A stretch of 7,076 bases of DNA from NCBI GenBank assembly GCA_021160245.1, contig JAGHCW010000023.1, positions 1 through 7,076 on the forward strand. Reading direction: 5' to 3'. Below the pieces are notes generated by a model that was not told the origin of the DNA, made no database searches, and saw nothing but the letters and a program-made list of their open reading frames with translations. The translations under genes and the position numbers were made by a program. Source of the stretch: a bacterium. GTDB lineage: Bacteria; B130-G9. Shown here one piece after another: positions 617 to 7,076 of this stretch. How positions within the stretch are numbered: the first letter of the stretch is position 1; the number at the start of each line of letters is the position of its first letter.

Positions 617-720
617 CGACCTTATAGTGCTACAGTAGGCGCGATCATGTGAAAGAATTATTCGATATGGCATGTTTAGTGCTTGTATTATGAGCAGATA
701 TGGGAGTCATGTTGTGACTG

Positions 721-727
721 AGAAAGG
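721..727 (+). promoter_or_regulatory. Ribosome binding site deciding a TTG start
   Basis: AGAAAGG (721-727), followed by A728, lies 6-7 bases before TTG at 735-737. The upstream in-frame ATGs at 672 and 690 lack a comparable site. Translation from 735 begins directly with a compact Sec signal peptide, which supports this start. Confidence 0.6.
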
Positions 728-734
728 AATTGCA

Positions 735-3035
735 TTGAACAAGTTCACGATTGCAGCGCAGGTCGCCCTGCTTATTCTGGTGATGTCGGTAGCGGCAGCT
801 CAGGACACGATTGTGTCAACAGTTCCGTGGTCAGGCGCGGGACAGGGACCGGCCAGAACATATTGCAGCCCGTATGCGGGACCGCTAGGCGCGCCTCAGG
901 AGACAATGCTCCTCTTCGTGGACGATGTGAGCGAGTACATTGTGTTGGGCCGCGATGGCTTAATTCAGACTGCTACTCCGGACGGCCTCGTTTACAAGTC
1001 TCTTGCTAAAGCGGGCTCTGAGACCGTGGCGAGCTGCGTTGAGACCTTCCTAAATCCCACGGACCTGGCAGTTTCCCATGATGGGATAACGTTCATTGGG
1101 GGATTGCAGGACGGCAACTCCAAGATCATGGCCATTGAGGACGCCAGTGTGCAGTGGACGCATCCATTGGGTTGGGCATCTGGTCAAGTTTACGTTGTGC
1201 CTAGCCAAGACGGCGTCGTCGCATTCACGGCCGATGGAAGACTGTCCTATCTTACAATCGACGGAGAGCAGGAATGGGACTTTCAGGCGCCGGGGGCCTT
1301 CGACGAATGTTCTATGCCGGCCATAGGCCACTCAGGCACGATATACTTCGCGGCGAGCGGAGTCTCCACGCGGATTGGCCCTTTCCTTGAGGATAGTATG
1401 GTCTTTGCCATTTCTGCTGACGGAGAGATGCTCTGGTGCAGACCGGCTCCGGTTGCTTCGCTAACGCATCCTGTGGTGGACGAAGATGAGAATATATATC
1501 TTTTCGGATCTGATGGCCTGCTGTATTCATTCTGCTCAACCGGCGGTCTGAACTGGGCTCAGCCGACTCCACGACGCGATGGCTCCATTTATGTCTGCTA
1601 TCACAATGAAATAGTTTATGTCCTTGTTGGTGGTGACGTCACCGCATTCAATACTGATGGTTCGGAAGCCTGGGACAGCTCTGTCCATGTTGGAGAATGC
1701 TTTGTTTCGGCCCCGGCGATCGGGAGTGATGGTATTCTCTATACCATTACGAAATCCGTGTTCCAGGAAAGCAAGCCCTACCTCACCGCTCTGGGGGAAA
1801 ATGGCGAGGTAAAGTGGTCTGTGCAGCTCCACTACTTCATACAGACCGCGCCAATCATCACTATTGACGGCGACGTGGCAGTGGGAACCACGGACGGAGG
1901 GTTGCTCTATCTGATTCCCGGCAGGGGAGACATCAGCCCCCCATATCTCGCGGAGACGTTCCCACCTCAAGGTACAGTCATTCCAATTGATGACTTCAAT
2001 CTATCGATGGTTATGTTGGACCCCGGTGTTGGAATTAGACCGGACAGCATTTGGCTTTCCGTCAACAATCAGGAGGTCGAGGTCGATAGGCACGAGGTCA
2101 TCGGAGGCTATGCGCTTTACGCCTCGCCTCGTCAGATTTTATCGCCATTTCAGAATGTGATGATCGAGGTCTATGGCGAGGACAGGAGATTCAGCAAGGG
2201 CACGAGGCCATTCCACCTCACGGCGATTGAGTTCCATAATACACCCAAGGTCGTTATGGCGGGCTACGGGATGACGACTGTCAGCAGCGAACACGGTGGT
2301 GATCTCTACATCTACGCTCTGATCGATCCGCTCTCTGAAATATCGAAGGTGGAGCTATCCGTCCCCGATAGCGCTTTCTTATTGCAGCTTTCCGATGAGG
2401 GCAGGAGCATTGACGAAAAGCTCGATGGCCGGTGGTATTCGGCGAGCTATTGCGTGCAACCCGGTATGCTCAAAGGACGCTATTTGCTGGAGATAGCCGC
2501 AGAAAACACCGATGGCCGACGAAGCCTTCCCTGGCCATATCTGACCGTGGAGACGGAGGAGCCTGTGTCACCCCGGCAAGGCGCCTCGGGCAAGGTCTCC
2601 CCGTCGCCTAAATCCGCCGCGGCATCCAAGTCGTCTGGCAGCGGCTCCCATGCCCCCATGCTCCACTCGCTTGCTCTTGCTGGCAAAGGAGGTCAGGGCA
2701 ATGAGATGCACCGGCCCCGGATACTCGCCGCTGGTTACTCATACACTCATTTGACTGTTCAGGGCGGAGTTATCCGCTTCCAAGCGTGGGTAGAGGACTA
2801 TGACGGCATAGACAACATTGACAGAGTGGAAGTCTATGCGGAGGGCAACCCAATCGGTCTGCGCCTCTACAATAACGGTCAAGGCGGCGATGACGATGCG
2901 CTCGATTCGATATACACTTTCCAAGCCTTCATGGGGAGCGATATCCTGGCGGCAGGTCCCCGTTTGTTTGAACTCAAAGCATTCGACAAGCAGAGTAATG
3001 AGAGCGACCTATGGCCCTATTTGGAGATAAAGTAG
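735..3035 (+). CDS. Secreted PQQ-like beta-propeller protein with Ig-like and duplicated C-terminal modules
   Basis: From the TTG start this is a 766-residue protein. Residues 1-22 form a signal peptide (NK, hydrophobic core, cleavage at AAA|QD), so it is exported. Residues about 50-395 contain repeated blade-like units with PQQ-propeller signatures such as DGEQEW, DGEMLW, TGGLNW, DGSEAW and NGEVKW, each preceded by strands like GTIYFA or GILYTI. This is the BamB/pyrrolo-quinoline-quinone-like fold, usually a binding or scaffold fold, and no catalytic residues can be identified. Residues about 400-485 resemble a bacterial Ig-like domain (DPGVGIRPDSIWLSVNN). Residues about 502-607 and 659-766 are two copies of one module: each opens with AGY and closes with WPYL. 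They are joined by a Ser/Ala/Gly/Pro-rich linker (about 610-655). No membrane anchor or sorting signal is visible. The upstream ATG at 672 would add 21 residues without a ribosome site. It is probably co-transcribed with the two small genes that follow. The substrate or partner is unknown. Confidence 0.85.
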   Translation: MNKFTIAAQVALLILVMSVAAAQDTIVSTVPWSGAGQGPARTYCSPYAGPLGAPQETMLLFVDDVSEYIVLGRDGLIQTATPDGLVYKSLAKAGSETVASCVETFLNPTDLAVSHDGITFIGGLQDGNSKIMAIEDASVQWTHPLGWASGQVYVVPSQDGVVAFTADGRLSYLTIDGEQEWDFQAPGAFDECSMPAIGHSGTIYFAASGVSTRIGPFLEDSMVFAISADGEMLWCRPAPVASLTHPVVDEDENIYLFGSDGLLYSFCSTGGLNWAQPTPRRDGSIYVCYHNEIVYVLVGGDVTAFNTDGSEAWDSSVHVGECFVSAPAIGSDGILYTITKSVFQESKPYLTALGENGEVKWSVQLHYFIQTAPIITIDGDVAVGTTDGGLLYLIPGRGDISPPYLAETFPPQGTVIPIDDFNLSMVMLDPGVGIRPDSIWLSVNNQEVEVDRHEVIGGYALYASPRQILSPFQNVMIEVYGEDRRFSKGTRPFHLTAIEFHNTPKVVMAGYGMTTVSSEHGGDLYIYALIDPLSEISKVELSVPDSAFLLQLSDEGRSIDEKLDGRWYSASYCVQPGMLKGRYLLEIAAENTDGRRSLPWPYLTVETEEPVSPRQGASGKVSPSPKSAAASKSSGSGSHAPMLHSLALAGKGGQGNEMHRPRILAAGYSYTHLTVQGGVIRFQAWVEDYDGIDNIDRVEVYAEGNPIGLRLYNNGQGGDDDALDSIYTFQAFMGSDILAAGPRLFELKAFDKQSNESDLWPYLEIK

Positions 3036-3564: not shown

Positions 3565-3596
3565 GCTACCTGTAAATGGGACAGAAGGAGGATGCC

Positions 3597-5543
3597 ATGA
3601 CGACAGGTGTTTGGACAACAAGGGTGATTCTGTTCATCAGTACTATTGCACTGCTCGCATTATGGCCGACAATGGCTGCCGCGGGACCAACAATCGCGAT
3701 CTACACGGACGCGGATAGTTACGCTCTGGGCGACGTGATTGAAGTGAGCCTGTCGGGCGAGAACTATGACGAGGCGATGAACGTTGATGTTTATGTGGGC
3801 CTCATCGCGCCGGGTGTTCCAACGTACACTCTGGGCGAGAGCGGATGGAGCGGCTTTATCGGCCCGTGGATTTGCGGTATTCACGTCCCGAACCCGTTCT
3901 TCATGGGCCGCGTGCCATTCAAGTGGTTTGGTGTGCCGTCCGAGATCGTCCCGATTGGCCACGAGGGCCAGTACTATTTCGCCTCAGTCCTGACCCGTCC
4001 GGGGACATCTGAATACGTCTGCGATCTGAGCCTCGCCCCCTTCGAGATAAGCTGCCCCTCAGGCTCGGATGTTTACGTCGATTCAGCATTCGGGGATGAC
4101 TCAAGCGATGGCTCCGAGAACGCTCCGTGGCAGACAATAACCTACGCCCTCGCCTCGGTTGATGCCTCAGAGTCGCATCCCGTGACGATCCATGTCGCCG
4201 CCGGCAAATACGCCGCCAGCACGAACGGCGAGTCTTTTCCGCTGAACATGAAGAGCTGGGTCTCGCTCTGCGGCGAGGATCGAGAGACGACCATCCTCGA
4301 TGCGGAGAACGAGGCGCCTCATGTGATTACATGTTTCGGTATGAGCAGCTTCACAATAAAGGAATTCACGATTACAGGGGGGCATGCAGACTCCTGGGAC
4401 TGGCCTGACCATGAAGGCGCGGGTATATTCTGCTGGCTTAGCTCCCCTGTCATTCAGAACAACACGATTACAAAGAACTGGGCGCTAGGCGGCAACGGGG
4501 GAGGAGGTGGGGGCATCTACTGCTCTGGTTGGGCAACGATTGCCAACAACACAATCAGTGATAATGAAACTGAGGAGTATTGGACCTATGGTGGGGGCAT
4601 CTACTGCTCCGCCTCGGCAACAATCACAGACAATCTCATCATTGGAAACCGAGCCGGGGGGGGGGGCGGCGGGGGACTCTACACCACAGAATGCTCGCCG
4701 GATATCATTGGCAATACCATTGCCAAGAACTTCGCGGGCAGCAAGGGTGGCGGCGTATATTGTTGGTTTGAGTCTCCGAGTATTATGGACAACACAATCA
4801 GGGACAATTCAACCGACGGCGACGGCGGCGGTATAAGTTGCTTTGCAGCAGCAGATATATTCAACAATCGGATAACAGACAATTCTTCCGGCTGGCATGG
4901 AGGCGGCATCTACTGTCAGGTTAAAGACGCGGTCATCCGAGACAATGTGATTACGGGCAACAGCGCCGGTCTCTGGAGTGACGGTGGCGGGATAAACTGC
5001 GATGAATGCTCGCCATTCATTCAAAGCAACACGATCATGGGAAACTCCGCTGGCTCGCAAGGTGGCGGAATCCATTGCAGATCGAGCGATTCTGCTGTGA
5101 TTGACAATAATCTGGTCACCAAGAACACCGGGGATGAAGGTGCCGGCATATCTTGTATGGGCAGCTACCCGACGATCTCAAACTGCACGATCGCTGACAA
5201 CTTCGCGATCGAGCCTTGGGACATTGGAGCAGGAATATGGACGGACTTTGGACAACCGACAATAACGAACTGCATCATCTGGGGCCATGAGGATGATCTC
5301 TATGATTGCTCGGCCACGTATTGTTGCGTAGAAGACGATCACGCTGGTGCGGGCAACATCCATGACAACCCGATGTTCGTCATCGGGCCATTTGGCGACT
5401 ACTACCTCGATCCGGACAGCCCTTGTATCGACGCCGGCAGCAGATCAGCGGAGGAGGCAGGGCTATCGGATACGACAACTCGGGCGGATGGGACTCCGGA
5501 TACCGGCACCGTCGATATGGGCTTCCATTATCCGCTGCCATAA
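3597..5543 (+). CDS. Secreted right-handed parallel beta-helix protein (DUF1565/choice-of-anchor Q type)
   Basis: ATG at 3597 has a strong AGGAGG site (3586-3591, 5-base spacer), so the in-frame ATG at 3576 is rejected. The product is 648 residues. Residues 1-29 are a signal peptide with cleavage at AAA|GPT. Residues 31-150 look like a beta-sandwich module (YTDADSYALGDVIEVSLSG, then VDVYVGLIAP). Residues about 156-260 match a DUF1565-like start of a beta-helix (VYVDSAFGDDSSDGS, PWQTITYAL, IHVAAGKY). Residues about 273-562 contain about eleven coils of 25-30 residues with the pattern GGGIYC...(D/N)NTI..N, giving Asn and Cys ladders. The end (SPCIDAGS, then DMGFHYP) resembles the closing part of choice-of-anchor Q proteins. 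No membrane anchor follows. The fold is typical of polysaccharide-binding or -cleaving and surface proteins, but no lyase residues can be assigned. It is a single gene between two gaps. An 11-G tract lies in coil four. Confidence 0.88.
   Translation: MTTGVWTTRVILFISTIALLALWPTMAAAGPTIAIYTDADSYALGDVIEVSLSGENYDEAMNVDVYVGLIAPGVPTYTLGESGWSGFIGPWICGIHVPNPFFMGRVPFKWFGVPSEIVPIGHEGQYYFASVLTRPGTSEYVCDLSLAPFEISCPSGSDVYVDSAFGDDSSDGSENAPWQTITYALASVDASESHPVTIHVAAGKYAASTNGESFPLNMKSWVSLCGEDRETTILDAENEAPHVITCFGMSSFTIKEFTITGGHADSWDWPDHEGAGIFCWLSSPVIQNNTITKNWALGGNGGGGGGIYCSGWATIANNTISDNETEEYWTYGGGIYCSASATITDNLIIGNRAGGGGGGGLYTTECSPDIIGNTIAKNFAGSKGGGVYCWFESPSIMDNTIRDNSTDGDGGGISCFAAADIFNNRITDNSSGWHGGGIYCQVKDAVIRDNVITGNSAGLWSDGGGINCDECSPFIQSNTIMGNSAGSQGGGIHCRSSDSAVIDNNLVTKNTGDEGAGISCMGSYPTISNCTIADNFAIEPWDIGAGIWTDFGQPTITNCIIWGHEDDLYDCSATYCCVEDDHAGAGNIHDNPMFVIGPFGDYYLDPDSPCIDAGSRSAEEAGLSDTTTRADGTPDTGTVDMGFHYPLP
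4506..4609 (+). repeat. 20-bp exact direct repeats within beta-helix coils
   Basis: The 20-base sequence at 4506-4525 recurs exactly at 4590-4609 and encodes the end of a GGGIYCS motif both times. The copies are 84 bp apart, exactly 28 codons or one helix coil. Recombination or slippage between them would remove or add one coil in frame. This is a by-product of coil duplication in the protein rather than a mobile element. Confidence 0.8.
4656..4666 (+). repeat. Homopolymeric tract of 11 G within the coding sequence
   Basis: Eleven consecutive G residues occur inside a run of seven glycine codons in the beta-helix gene, next to further G-rich codons up to 4675. Such tracts are prone to strand slippage and also to sequencing error. 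As written the frame is open across the tract. A change of one or two bases would shift the frame around residue 358 and remove nearly half of the protein. Confidence 0.85.
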
Positions 5544-5671: not shown

Positions 5672-5713
5672 GGCTCGCATAAGAAGCTCGAGCATATCTT
5701 GAGGCGCGGCAAT

Positions 5714-6541
5714 ATGAGAGTTCTGAAGCGATTTCCATTATCCGCCAGGATTGGGATGGTCATCTTGGCCTTATTCGTGATCGTGGCCTTGGCCGCGCCT
5801 CTTATATCGCCCCACGAGCCAAACGACCAGGACCTTAAACGTCGCCTCGAGGGCCCAAGTTGGGAGAACCTGCTGGGCCGCGACGAGTTTGGGCGGGACA
5901 CACTCTCAAGGCTTATCTACGGCGCGAGGGTATCTCTCACTGTCGGGGCGCTAGTCGTCTCGATCTCGCTTGTGATCGGCGTCTCATTGGGCGCGCTGGT
6001 CGGTTACTGCGGGGGATGGCGGGATGAGGCGGCGATGCGAGTTGTTGATATCGTCTTGGCTTTCCCGGGGATACTCCTTGCGATAGGTATGATGGCGGTG
6101 CTTGGGCAAAGCCTTTTTAACGTTGTCCTTGCGCTCTGCATCTGTGGCTGGGCGCCTTATGCGAGGCTTGCCAGAGGGGAGGCGCTCTCGATAAGGACGC
6201 GGGGCTATGTCCTTGCAGCGGAGTCGCTTGGCGCAAGCACATTCCGCATCGTTGGCCGGCACATTTTGCCGAACATCATCTCGCCGATACTCGTAAGGGC
6301 GACGCTTGGCATGGCGGGCGTTATCGTGGCCGAGTCGGCGCTCAGTTTCTTGGGACTGGGCATCCAGCCGCCGACCGCTAGTTGGGGCTCAATGCTGAAT
6401 GGCGGAAGAATCTATCTACTCGTCGCTCCGCACCTTGTATTCATCCCGGGTGTTACAATAATGCTGGTGGTTTTGAGCCTCAATTTCTTTGGAGACGGGC
6501 TGCGGGACGTTCTTGACCCGAGGCGCGGCGAGTATGTATAG
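5714..6541 (+). CDS. ABC transporter permease, DppC/OppC (peptide/nickel) family
   Basis: This is an inner-membrane permease subunit of a peptide/opine/nickel-type ABC importer. The 275-residue length and the pattern are those of the DppC/OppC branch. There is an N-terminal helix (IGMVILALFVIVALAAPLI) followed by the diagnostic PHEPNDQDL, the conserved LLGRDEFGRDTLSRLIYGAR segment, and several further membrane helices. The cytoplasmic EAA-type loop that contacts the ATPase is at about 166-187 (VLAAESLGAS, then RHILPN). The family signature SFLGLGIQPPTASWG and the C-terminal GDGLRDVLDPR are also present. ATG at 5714 has GAGG nine bases upstream. A TTG at 5699 would add five residues without a good site. 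No DppB-type partner, ATPase or binding protein is adjacent in this window, and the substrate cannot be inferred. It overlaps the next gene by 8 bp, suggesting coupled translation. Confidence 0.93.
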   Translation: MRVLKRFPLSARIGMVILALFVIVALAAPLISPHEPNDQDLKRRLEGPSWENLLGRDEFGRDTLSRLIYGARVSLTVGALVVSISLVIGVSLGALVGYCGGWRDEAAMRVVDIVLAFPGILLAIGMMAVLGQSLFNVVLALCICGWAPYARLARGEALSIRTRGYVLAAESLGASTFRIVGRHILPNIISPILVRATLGMAGVIVAESALSFLGLGIQPPTASWGSMLNGGRIYLLVAPHLVFIPGVTIMLVVLSLNFFGDGLRDVLDPRRGEYV

Positions 6542-7076
6542 ACATATATGTCGGCGATTTGGCCGTAGTTTGTGTCCGTTTGATAGCAGGACAATTATCC
6601 TCATTTTTGCCGTCATCGTCCTTGCCTCGACGCTCATCATCTTTCCTGGGACCTCTCAATCGGAGGAGACGGATGGCGCGGACGTTGAAGACGTGCAGCC
6701 AGCACCGGTGCTGCCGGGGGACATAGACGGCTCGGGAGTGGTCGATAAGAATGACCGACGGTTGATGGAGAGTTCCTTGGGAGCCACTCCGGAAGACCAC
6801 GATTGGGACATCCGGTGCGACCTTGACCACGATGATTTCGTGGGCTTTAAGGACTTCGCAATTCTTAAAGAGAATATGGGGAAGCGGCTCTCTGGTGGGC
6901 GGATTGTCCAGGGCATCCCGGGCGACAAATGCCCCCATCCAAAGCTTCGATTTGCGCCTCTTCTCGAGATGACAGTCGCCTATCCTGAAGAGCTCTCCCA
7001 AAGCAAGGTGTGGCTGGTTATAGGCATCGATAAGACTGGAGATGTCATATCTGCTAGGCCGGCATTTTCTGAACTC
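6534..7076 (+). CDS. Membrane-anchored or exported dockerin-type protein with TonB C-terminal-like start (3' end outside window)
   Basis: The frame is open from ATG 6534 to the window edge, giving 181 residues. Residues 1-19 are Arg-rich and residues 20-39 are hydrophobic (TIILIFAVIVLASTLIIFPG), so this is an uncleaved anchor or a signal peptide. An acidic linker follows. Residues 63-116 form a type I dockerin-like pair: the first Ca2+ loop has D63, D65, S67, D71 and D74; the second, after WDIRC, has D96, D98, D100, G104 and D107, ending FAILKENMG. Residues about 142-181 (AYPEELSQ, then VWLVIGIDKTGDVISA) resemble the YPEEA...V.IDE.G.V start of a TonB C-terminal domain; this is weaker and truncated. 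The start overlaps the permease stop by 8 bp, and GAGG (6520-6523) lies 10 bases upstream, so the two genes are probably translationally coupled. The dockerin assignment is firm; the TonB-like part is tentative. Confidence 0.78.
   Translation, partial: MYRHICRRFGRSLCPFDSRTIILIFAVIVLASTLIIFPGTSQSEETDGADVEDVQPAPVLPGDIDGSGVVDKNDRRLMESSLGATPEDHDWDIRCDLDHDDFVGFKDFAILKENMGKRLSGGRIVQGIPGDKCPHPKLRFAPLLEMTVAYPEELSQSKVWLVIGIDKTGDVISARPAFSEL

Follow-up and report, generated by a model that had tools for sequence, protein, structure and literature searches.

At the right-hand end of the window, i.e. the whole stretch of 7,076 nucleotides analysed here, a gene encodes a small protein in which an N-terminal hydrophobic segment is followed by a dockerin type I-like module and, very probably, by a divergent TonB/TolA-type C-terminal domain (C-domain). 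Known domains are thus joined in a new architecture which is apparently confined to one small phylum. We read this protein as a Ca2+-stabilised periplasmic adaptor that combines an anchor or signal peptide, a dockerin and a peptide-capturing TonB/TolA-type end and that is not driven by ExbB/ExbD, at a rough probability of 55%. The N-terminal hydrophobic anchor or signal peptide would place the protein in the envelope or periplasm, while the dockerin would fold on Ca2+ into a compact stalk. Judging by homology only, the C-domain would take up a partner protein of the envelope by adding an extended peptide of it as a strand, in the manner of TonB and TolA domains, and the protein as a whole would run without ExbB/ExbD drive.

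The window is the entire contig C104 from a genome of 3.4 Mb (G000), the nearest named relatives of which are Candidatus Coatesbacteria metagenome-assembled genomes. On the forward strand, a frame with ATG at 6534 extends over 181 codons without a stop and is still open at the last base of the window (6534..7076). Everything that the first-pass annotation had described for this frame is present, including the Arg-rich start, the hydrophobic segment (residues 20-37), AYPEELSQ together with VWLVIGIDKTGDVISA, and two aspartate loops exactly at the residues claimed (D63/D65/S67/D71/D74 and D96/D98/D100/G104/D107). No early stop occurs at the window edge: a search of the same genome found residues 140-181 again, with 100% identity, at the very beginning of contig C2, and window positions 6950-7076 equal C2 1-127, an exact 127-base overlap of the kind ordinary in assembly graphs. 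With the remaining codons located on L011:128-283 (contig C2) and the stop at C2:283, the joined gene comprises 232 codons and encodes a protein of 232 residues. We infer the join from the 127-base overlap, and the orthologues described below back it. Feature coordinates are compiled in Table 1.

Table 1 Features of the dockerin-TonB-like gene and of the gene overlapping its start (window positions)
Feature	Position	Strand	Residues	Basis or remark
OppC/DppC-type ABC permease gene	5699..6541	+		8-base overlap with the start of the dockerin-TonB-like gene
Hydrophobic segment	6591..6644	+	20-37	after the Arg-rich N-terminus; without His, without SHLS
Dockerin type I-like domain	6714..6875	+	61-114	Pfam Dockerin_1, family profile, dN/dS
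Calcium loop 1 (predicted), DIDGSGVVDKND	6720..6755	+	63-74	aspartates invariant in 4 orthologues
Calcium loop 2 (predicted), DLDHDDFVGFKD	6819..6854	+	96-107	aspartates invariant; usual glycines are H and D here
Probable divergent TonB/TolA-type C-terminal domain, start	6951..7076	+	140-181 of 140-232	profile-profile comparison, predicted fold

Coatesbacteria, an uncultured phylum, was sampled with four genomes (G000, which holds the window, G001, G002 and G003), and each of them carries one copy of the gene. The orthologue of G001 is complete, with 213 residues counted from its likely start, and that of G003 has 217 residues; the G002 orthologue is split across two contigs, and an internal ATG was used as its start. 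In all four genomes the gene precedes purC-birA, i.e. housekeeping genes, and on C2 purC is followed by birA and coaX (purC and birA named from sequence, coaX by Pfam). An assembly chimera at the contig end was ruled out, since every one of the genomes examined carries the gene beside purC with the same domain order. The completed frame and the four orthologues beside purC-birA show that the gene is real and inherited. On the upstream side, the OppC-type permease with its 8-base overlap is present in G000 and G002, whereas other genes take this place in G001 and G003. As only two genomes share the overlap, an operon was not inferred from it and it was set aside as functional evidence. The window furthermore encodes a right-handed beta-helix protein of 655 residues (3576-5543; DUF1565, NosD and Chlamydia PMP-type repeats), apparently a surface or secreted protein, and, at 672-3035, a secreted protein of 787 residues that contains a PQQ/BamB-type beta-propeller and may have an Ig-like part at its C-terminus.

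The proposal of a dockerin-like Ca2+ module was borne out by a Pfam search with Dockerin_1 (PF00404). Three orthologues, which keep all loop aspartates, reach 31.7-32.8 bits (E 8e-8 to 1.8e-7) and thereby exceed the cut-off of 22.9, while the window copy scores below it (19.8 bits, E 9e-4). All loop aspartates are invariant across the four sequences, the family profile matches solved dockerins and EF-hand proteins, and the AlphaFold model gives weak matches to dockerins. In the second loop, the window copy reads DLDHDDF versus DLDGDGL, having lost both glycines that are kept in all three other orthologues; because of this loss, it may bind Ca2+ less well than they do. Neither a cohesin (PF00963) nor any dockerin besides this one was matched in the window's genome, which is 95% complete. 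Hence, a cellulosomal function was ruled out, and as far as sequence tells, the dockerin more likely serves as a self-contained Ca2+ module than for attachment to a cellulosome.

The C-terminal domain required more sensitive methods. In the Pfam and NCBIfam searches, neither the completed C-terminus nor its orthologues matched TonB_C (PF03544, cut-off 24.6 bits) at E-values up to 10, the sole weak NCBIfam row being myxo_SS_tail (E 0.25) for one orthologue; direct annotation as TonB through these collections was therefore rejected as unsupported. Likewise, a sequence search of the PDB with the C-domain profile returned no meaningful match. The family was then compared by hhalign with a TonB_C profile built from 29 TonB_C domains gathered from related genomes, whereby family columns 19-72 aligned with TonB_C columns 13-66 at a probability of 92.8 and a score of 38.2, the family alignments being shallow (4-5 sequences). 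The best of 300 column shuffles scored 16.3 and the reversed alignment 9.7, and the score stayed at 32.6 or above when any one sequence was dropped.

Structure prediction points in the same direction. For the C-domain of the G001 orthologue, AlphaFold predicts, at moderate confidence, the order short helix, strand, strand, helix, short strand, strand. In the window copy, the short helix and strands 1 and 2 lie within the window, with the helix, last strand and tail encoded on contig C2. The strand-strand-helix-strand fold appears in the predicted models at moderate pLDDT (means of 58.7 and 66.3 for the two models, with most of the C-domain core at 74-84). In Foldseek searches against the PDB, the 19 best-ranked matches of the G001 orthologue, followed by dockerins, and the 18 best-ranked matches of the window's C-domain, predicted separately from C2, were all C-terminal domains of TonB, TolA, HasB or FusB, with no E-value under 0.001. 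VIA-align gave Z-scores of up to 7.3 for the G001 orthologue, where the first 23 rows were TonB/TolA-like and the first unrelated row had 4.2, and of 8.2 (against TolA domain III) for the window's C-domain, where the 23 best rows were TonB/TolA-like and unrelated ones scored 3.6 or less. The C-terminus is therefore most probably a divergent TonB/TolA-type domain; the assignment falls short of certainty because none of the Foldseek E-values drops under 0.001 and confidence in the models is modest. It is very unlikely that the resemblance reflects convergence on a small beta-beta-alpha-beta fold in an unrelated exported Ca2+-binding protein: the shallow alignments, the modest model confidence and the lack of a match to any curated family would fit this explanation, but profile-profile comparison and fold search point to the same relation, as do both models, and in each VIA-align search even the closest of the unrelated folds has a lower Z-score.

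The pairing of a dockerin with a TonB-like domain, for which the first-pass annotation had 42 residues of the second domain to go by, is thus upheld by hhalign and by the fold in the completed gene; for the TonB C-terminal-like domain itself, the profile-profile match and predicted fold sustain the claim, while a direct PF03544 match is missing. The YPEE motif that had served as a cue is not conserved: the window copy has it, but the orthologues show SASDA, SALDA or PGEDL at that site. Hence, the YP motif before the first strand, a TonB_C feature, is no trait of the family and belongs to the window copy only.

As a rough estimate from short sequences, dN/dS between G001 and G003 is about 0.14 in the dockerin, as opposed to 0.58 in the C-domain and 0.63 in the N-terminus, which makes the dockerin the most constrained part of the protein and leaves the C-domain only moderately constrained. 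This difference, together with a C-domain that lacks the YP motif in the orthologues and escapes direct profile matching, is what one would expect if the dockerin were the working part, attached to some surface or to a cohesin-like protein that escaped detection, and the C-domain a degenerate structural cap without peptide binding. We regard this reading as rather unlikely, given that the genome offers no match to a cohesin or to another dockerin. In clostridial dockerins, the cohesin-contact residues at loop positions 10-11 are usually Ser/Thr, whereas these positions are occupied by K/N and F/K here. In addition, the complete orthologues preserve WYFE as well as the C-domain's strand pattern.

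TonB and TolA reach across the periplasm through a Pro-rich or helical domain II. The first-pass annotation had envisaged an energy-coupling protein with a Ca2+-binding spacer where the Pro-rich linker would be, and this part of its proposal was not supported. Motor docking of TonB and TolA relies on a transmembrane Ser-3X-His-6X-Leu-3X-Ser motif (PMC12905483, PMC12204202) and, as a second element, on a D-box strand with flanking prolines (PMC10907165). In the protein described here, the Arg-rich start leads into a stretch of about 18 hydrophobic residues followed by G-E or S-E, and by its sequence the hydrophobic segment could be a Sec signal peptide or a signal anchor. All four orthologues lack a His in this segment, an S-3X-H or SHLS motif and a Pro-rich stretch, and the D-box pattern is absent from all four as well, a strict pattern which also missed the genome's two ordinary-looking transducers, used as controls. 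The strict SHLS pattern similarly fails on these two, though both keep the transmembrane His. As the strict patterns missed both controls, it is the His, the linker and the gene context that carry the case against a transducer. With regard to the linker, the 80 residues after the helix contain 1-5 prolines in the orthologues, whereas the two control transducers have 9 and 17 there, and the dockerin lies just 14-22 residues from the helix. As to gene context, no ExbB/ExbD was found beside the gene in the flanking stretches examined; elsewhere, the window's genome holds four ExbD matches and two TonB-receptor plug matches.

Against the energy-coupling proposal also speaks that these two transducers, in contrast, possess a transmembrane His and a Pro/Lys-rich linker; both are of ordinary make-up. 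One is L002, with the transmembrane His and the Pro/Lys-rich linker. The other, the TolA/TonB-like protein L003 (G000:C166, minus strand), has S-3X-H in its helix and adjoins PD40 propeller and response-regulator-like proteins. The PD40 propeller neighbour suggests that L003 is TolA; TolB_N (PF04052) had no match in the window's genome. Taken together, it is decidedly unlikely that the protein acts as an energy-coupling transducer, the helix of which would dock to ExbB/ExbD and the C-domain of which would pull on an outer-membrane protein, with the dockerin substituting for the Pro-rich linker as a spacer set by Ca2+. Such a role would agree with the N-terminal hydrophobic helix, the TonB/TolA-like C-domain and the ExbD and receptor-plug matches of the genome, but not with the missing docking features, the few prolines, the short distance to the dockerin and the gene neighbourhood just described. 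Since the parts that TonB and TolA use for motor docking are missing, ExbB/ExbD drive is unlikely, and the protein seems not to depend on it. A Ca2+-gated envelope force transducer, i.e. a TonB/TolA paralogue without the standard docking helix and linker in which the Ca2+-folded dockerin sets the periplasmic reach, is highly improbable.

Outside the phylum, the full protein was not found among 382 genomes; only the dockerin part matched, in 23 of them, and among 11 dockerin loci inspected no frame also held TonB_C. As these matches are limited to the dockerin part, the protein looks specific to Coatesbacteria within the genomes sampled. No description of a dockerin-TonB pairing was found among the listed titles and abstracts of open papers in which both terms occur, and dockerins go unmentioned in a 2025 survey of periplasmic force transducers (PMC12204202). 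The preferred reading as a Ca2+-stabilised adaptor thus presents, for a deep and uncultured phylum, a TonB/TolA-type C-domain that is separated from the motor-driven setting and coupled to a Ca2+ module, with the warning that a TonB-like end need not imply an energy transducer. If the C-domain still captures peptides, the protein would afford a ready system for testing force-free function of TonB/TolA domains.

In comparison with known systems, the protein resembles TonB/TolA transducers (PF03544, TolA domain III) in its predicted C-domain fold and remote profile similarity as well as in an N-terminal hydrophobic segment and export across the inner membrane. It differs from them in lacking SHLS, the transmembrane His and the D-box, in carrying a dockerin where the long Pro-rich or helical domain II would be, and in that the orthologues have no YP motif and ExbB/ExbD neighbours were not seen. 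With non-cellulosomal dockerins of type I (PF00404) it shares two Ca2+ loops, each with its full set of aspartates and followed by a helix, as well as a Pfam score over the cut-off in three orthologues. In contrast to these, it has neither a cohesin nor a second dockerin match in the genome and no enzyme attached, and its dockerin precedes a TonB-like domain. The same genome encodes a further protein with a TonB-like end that is no standard transducer, namely a lipoprotein-like protein with a clear TonB_C domain (L001:1501-1740, on G000:C217). This protein differs by its lipobox-like LTCISC, its clear PF03544 match (68.6 bits) and the absence of a dockerin, while both proteins are exported, carry a TonB-type C-domain and do without a transmembrane His.
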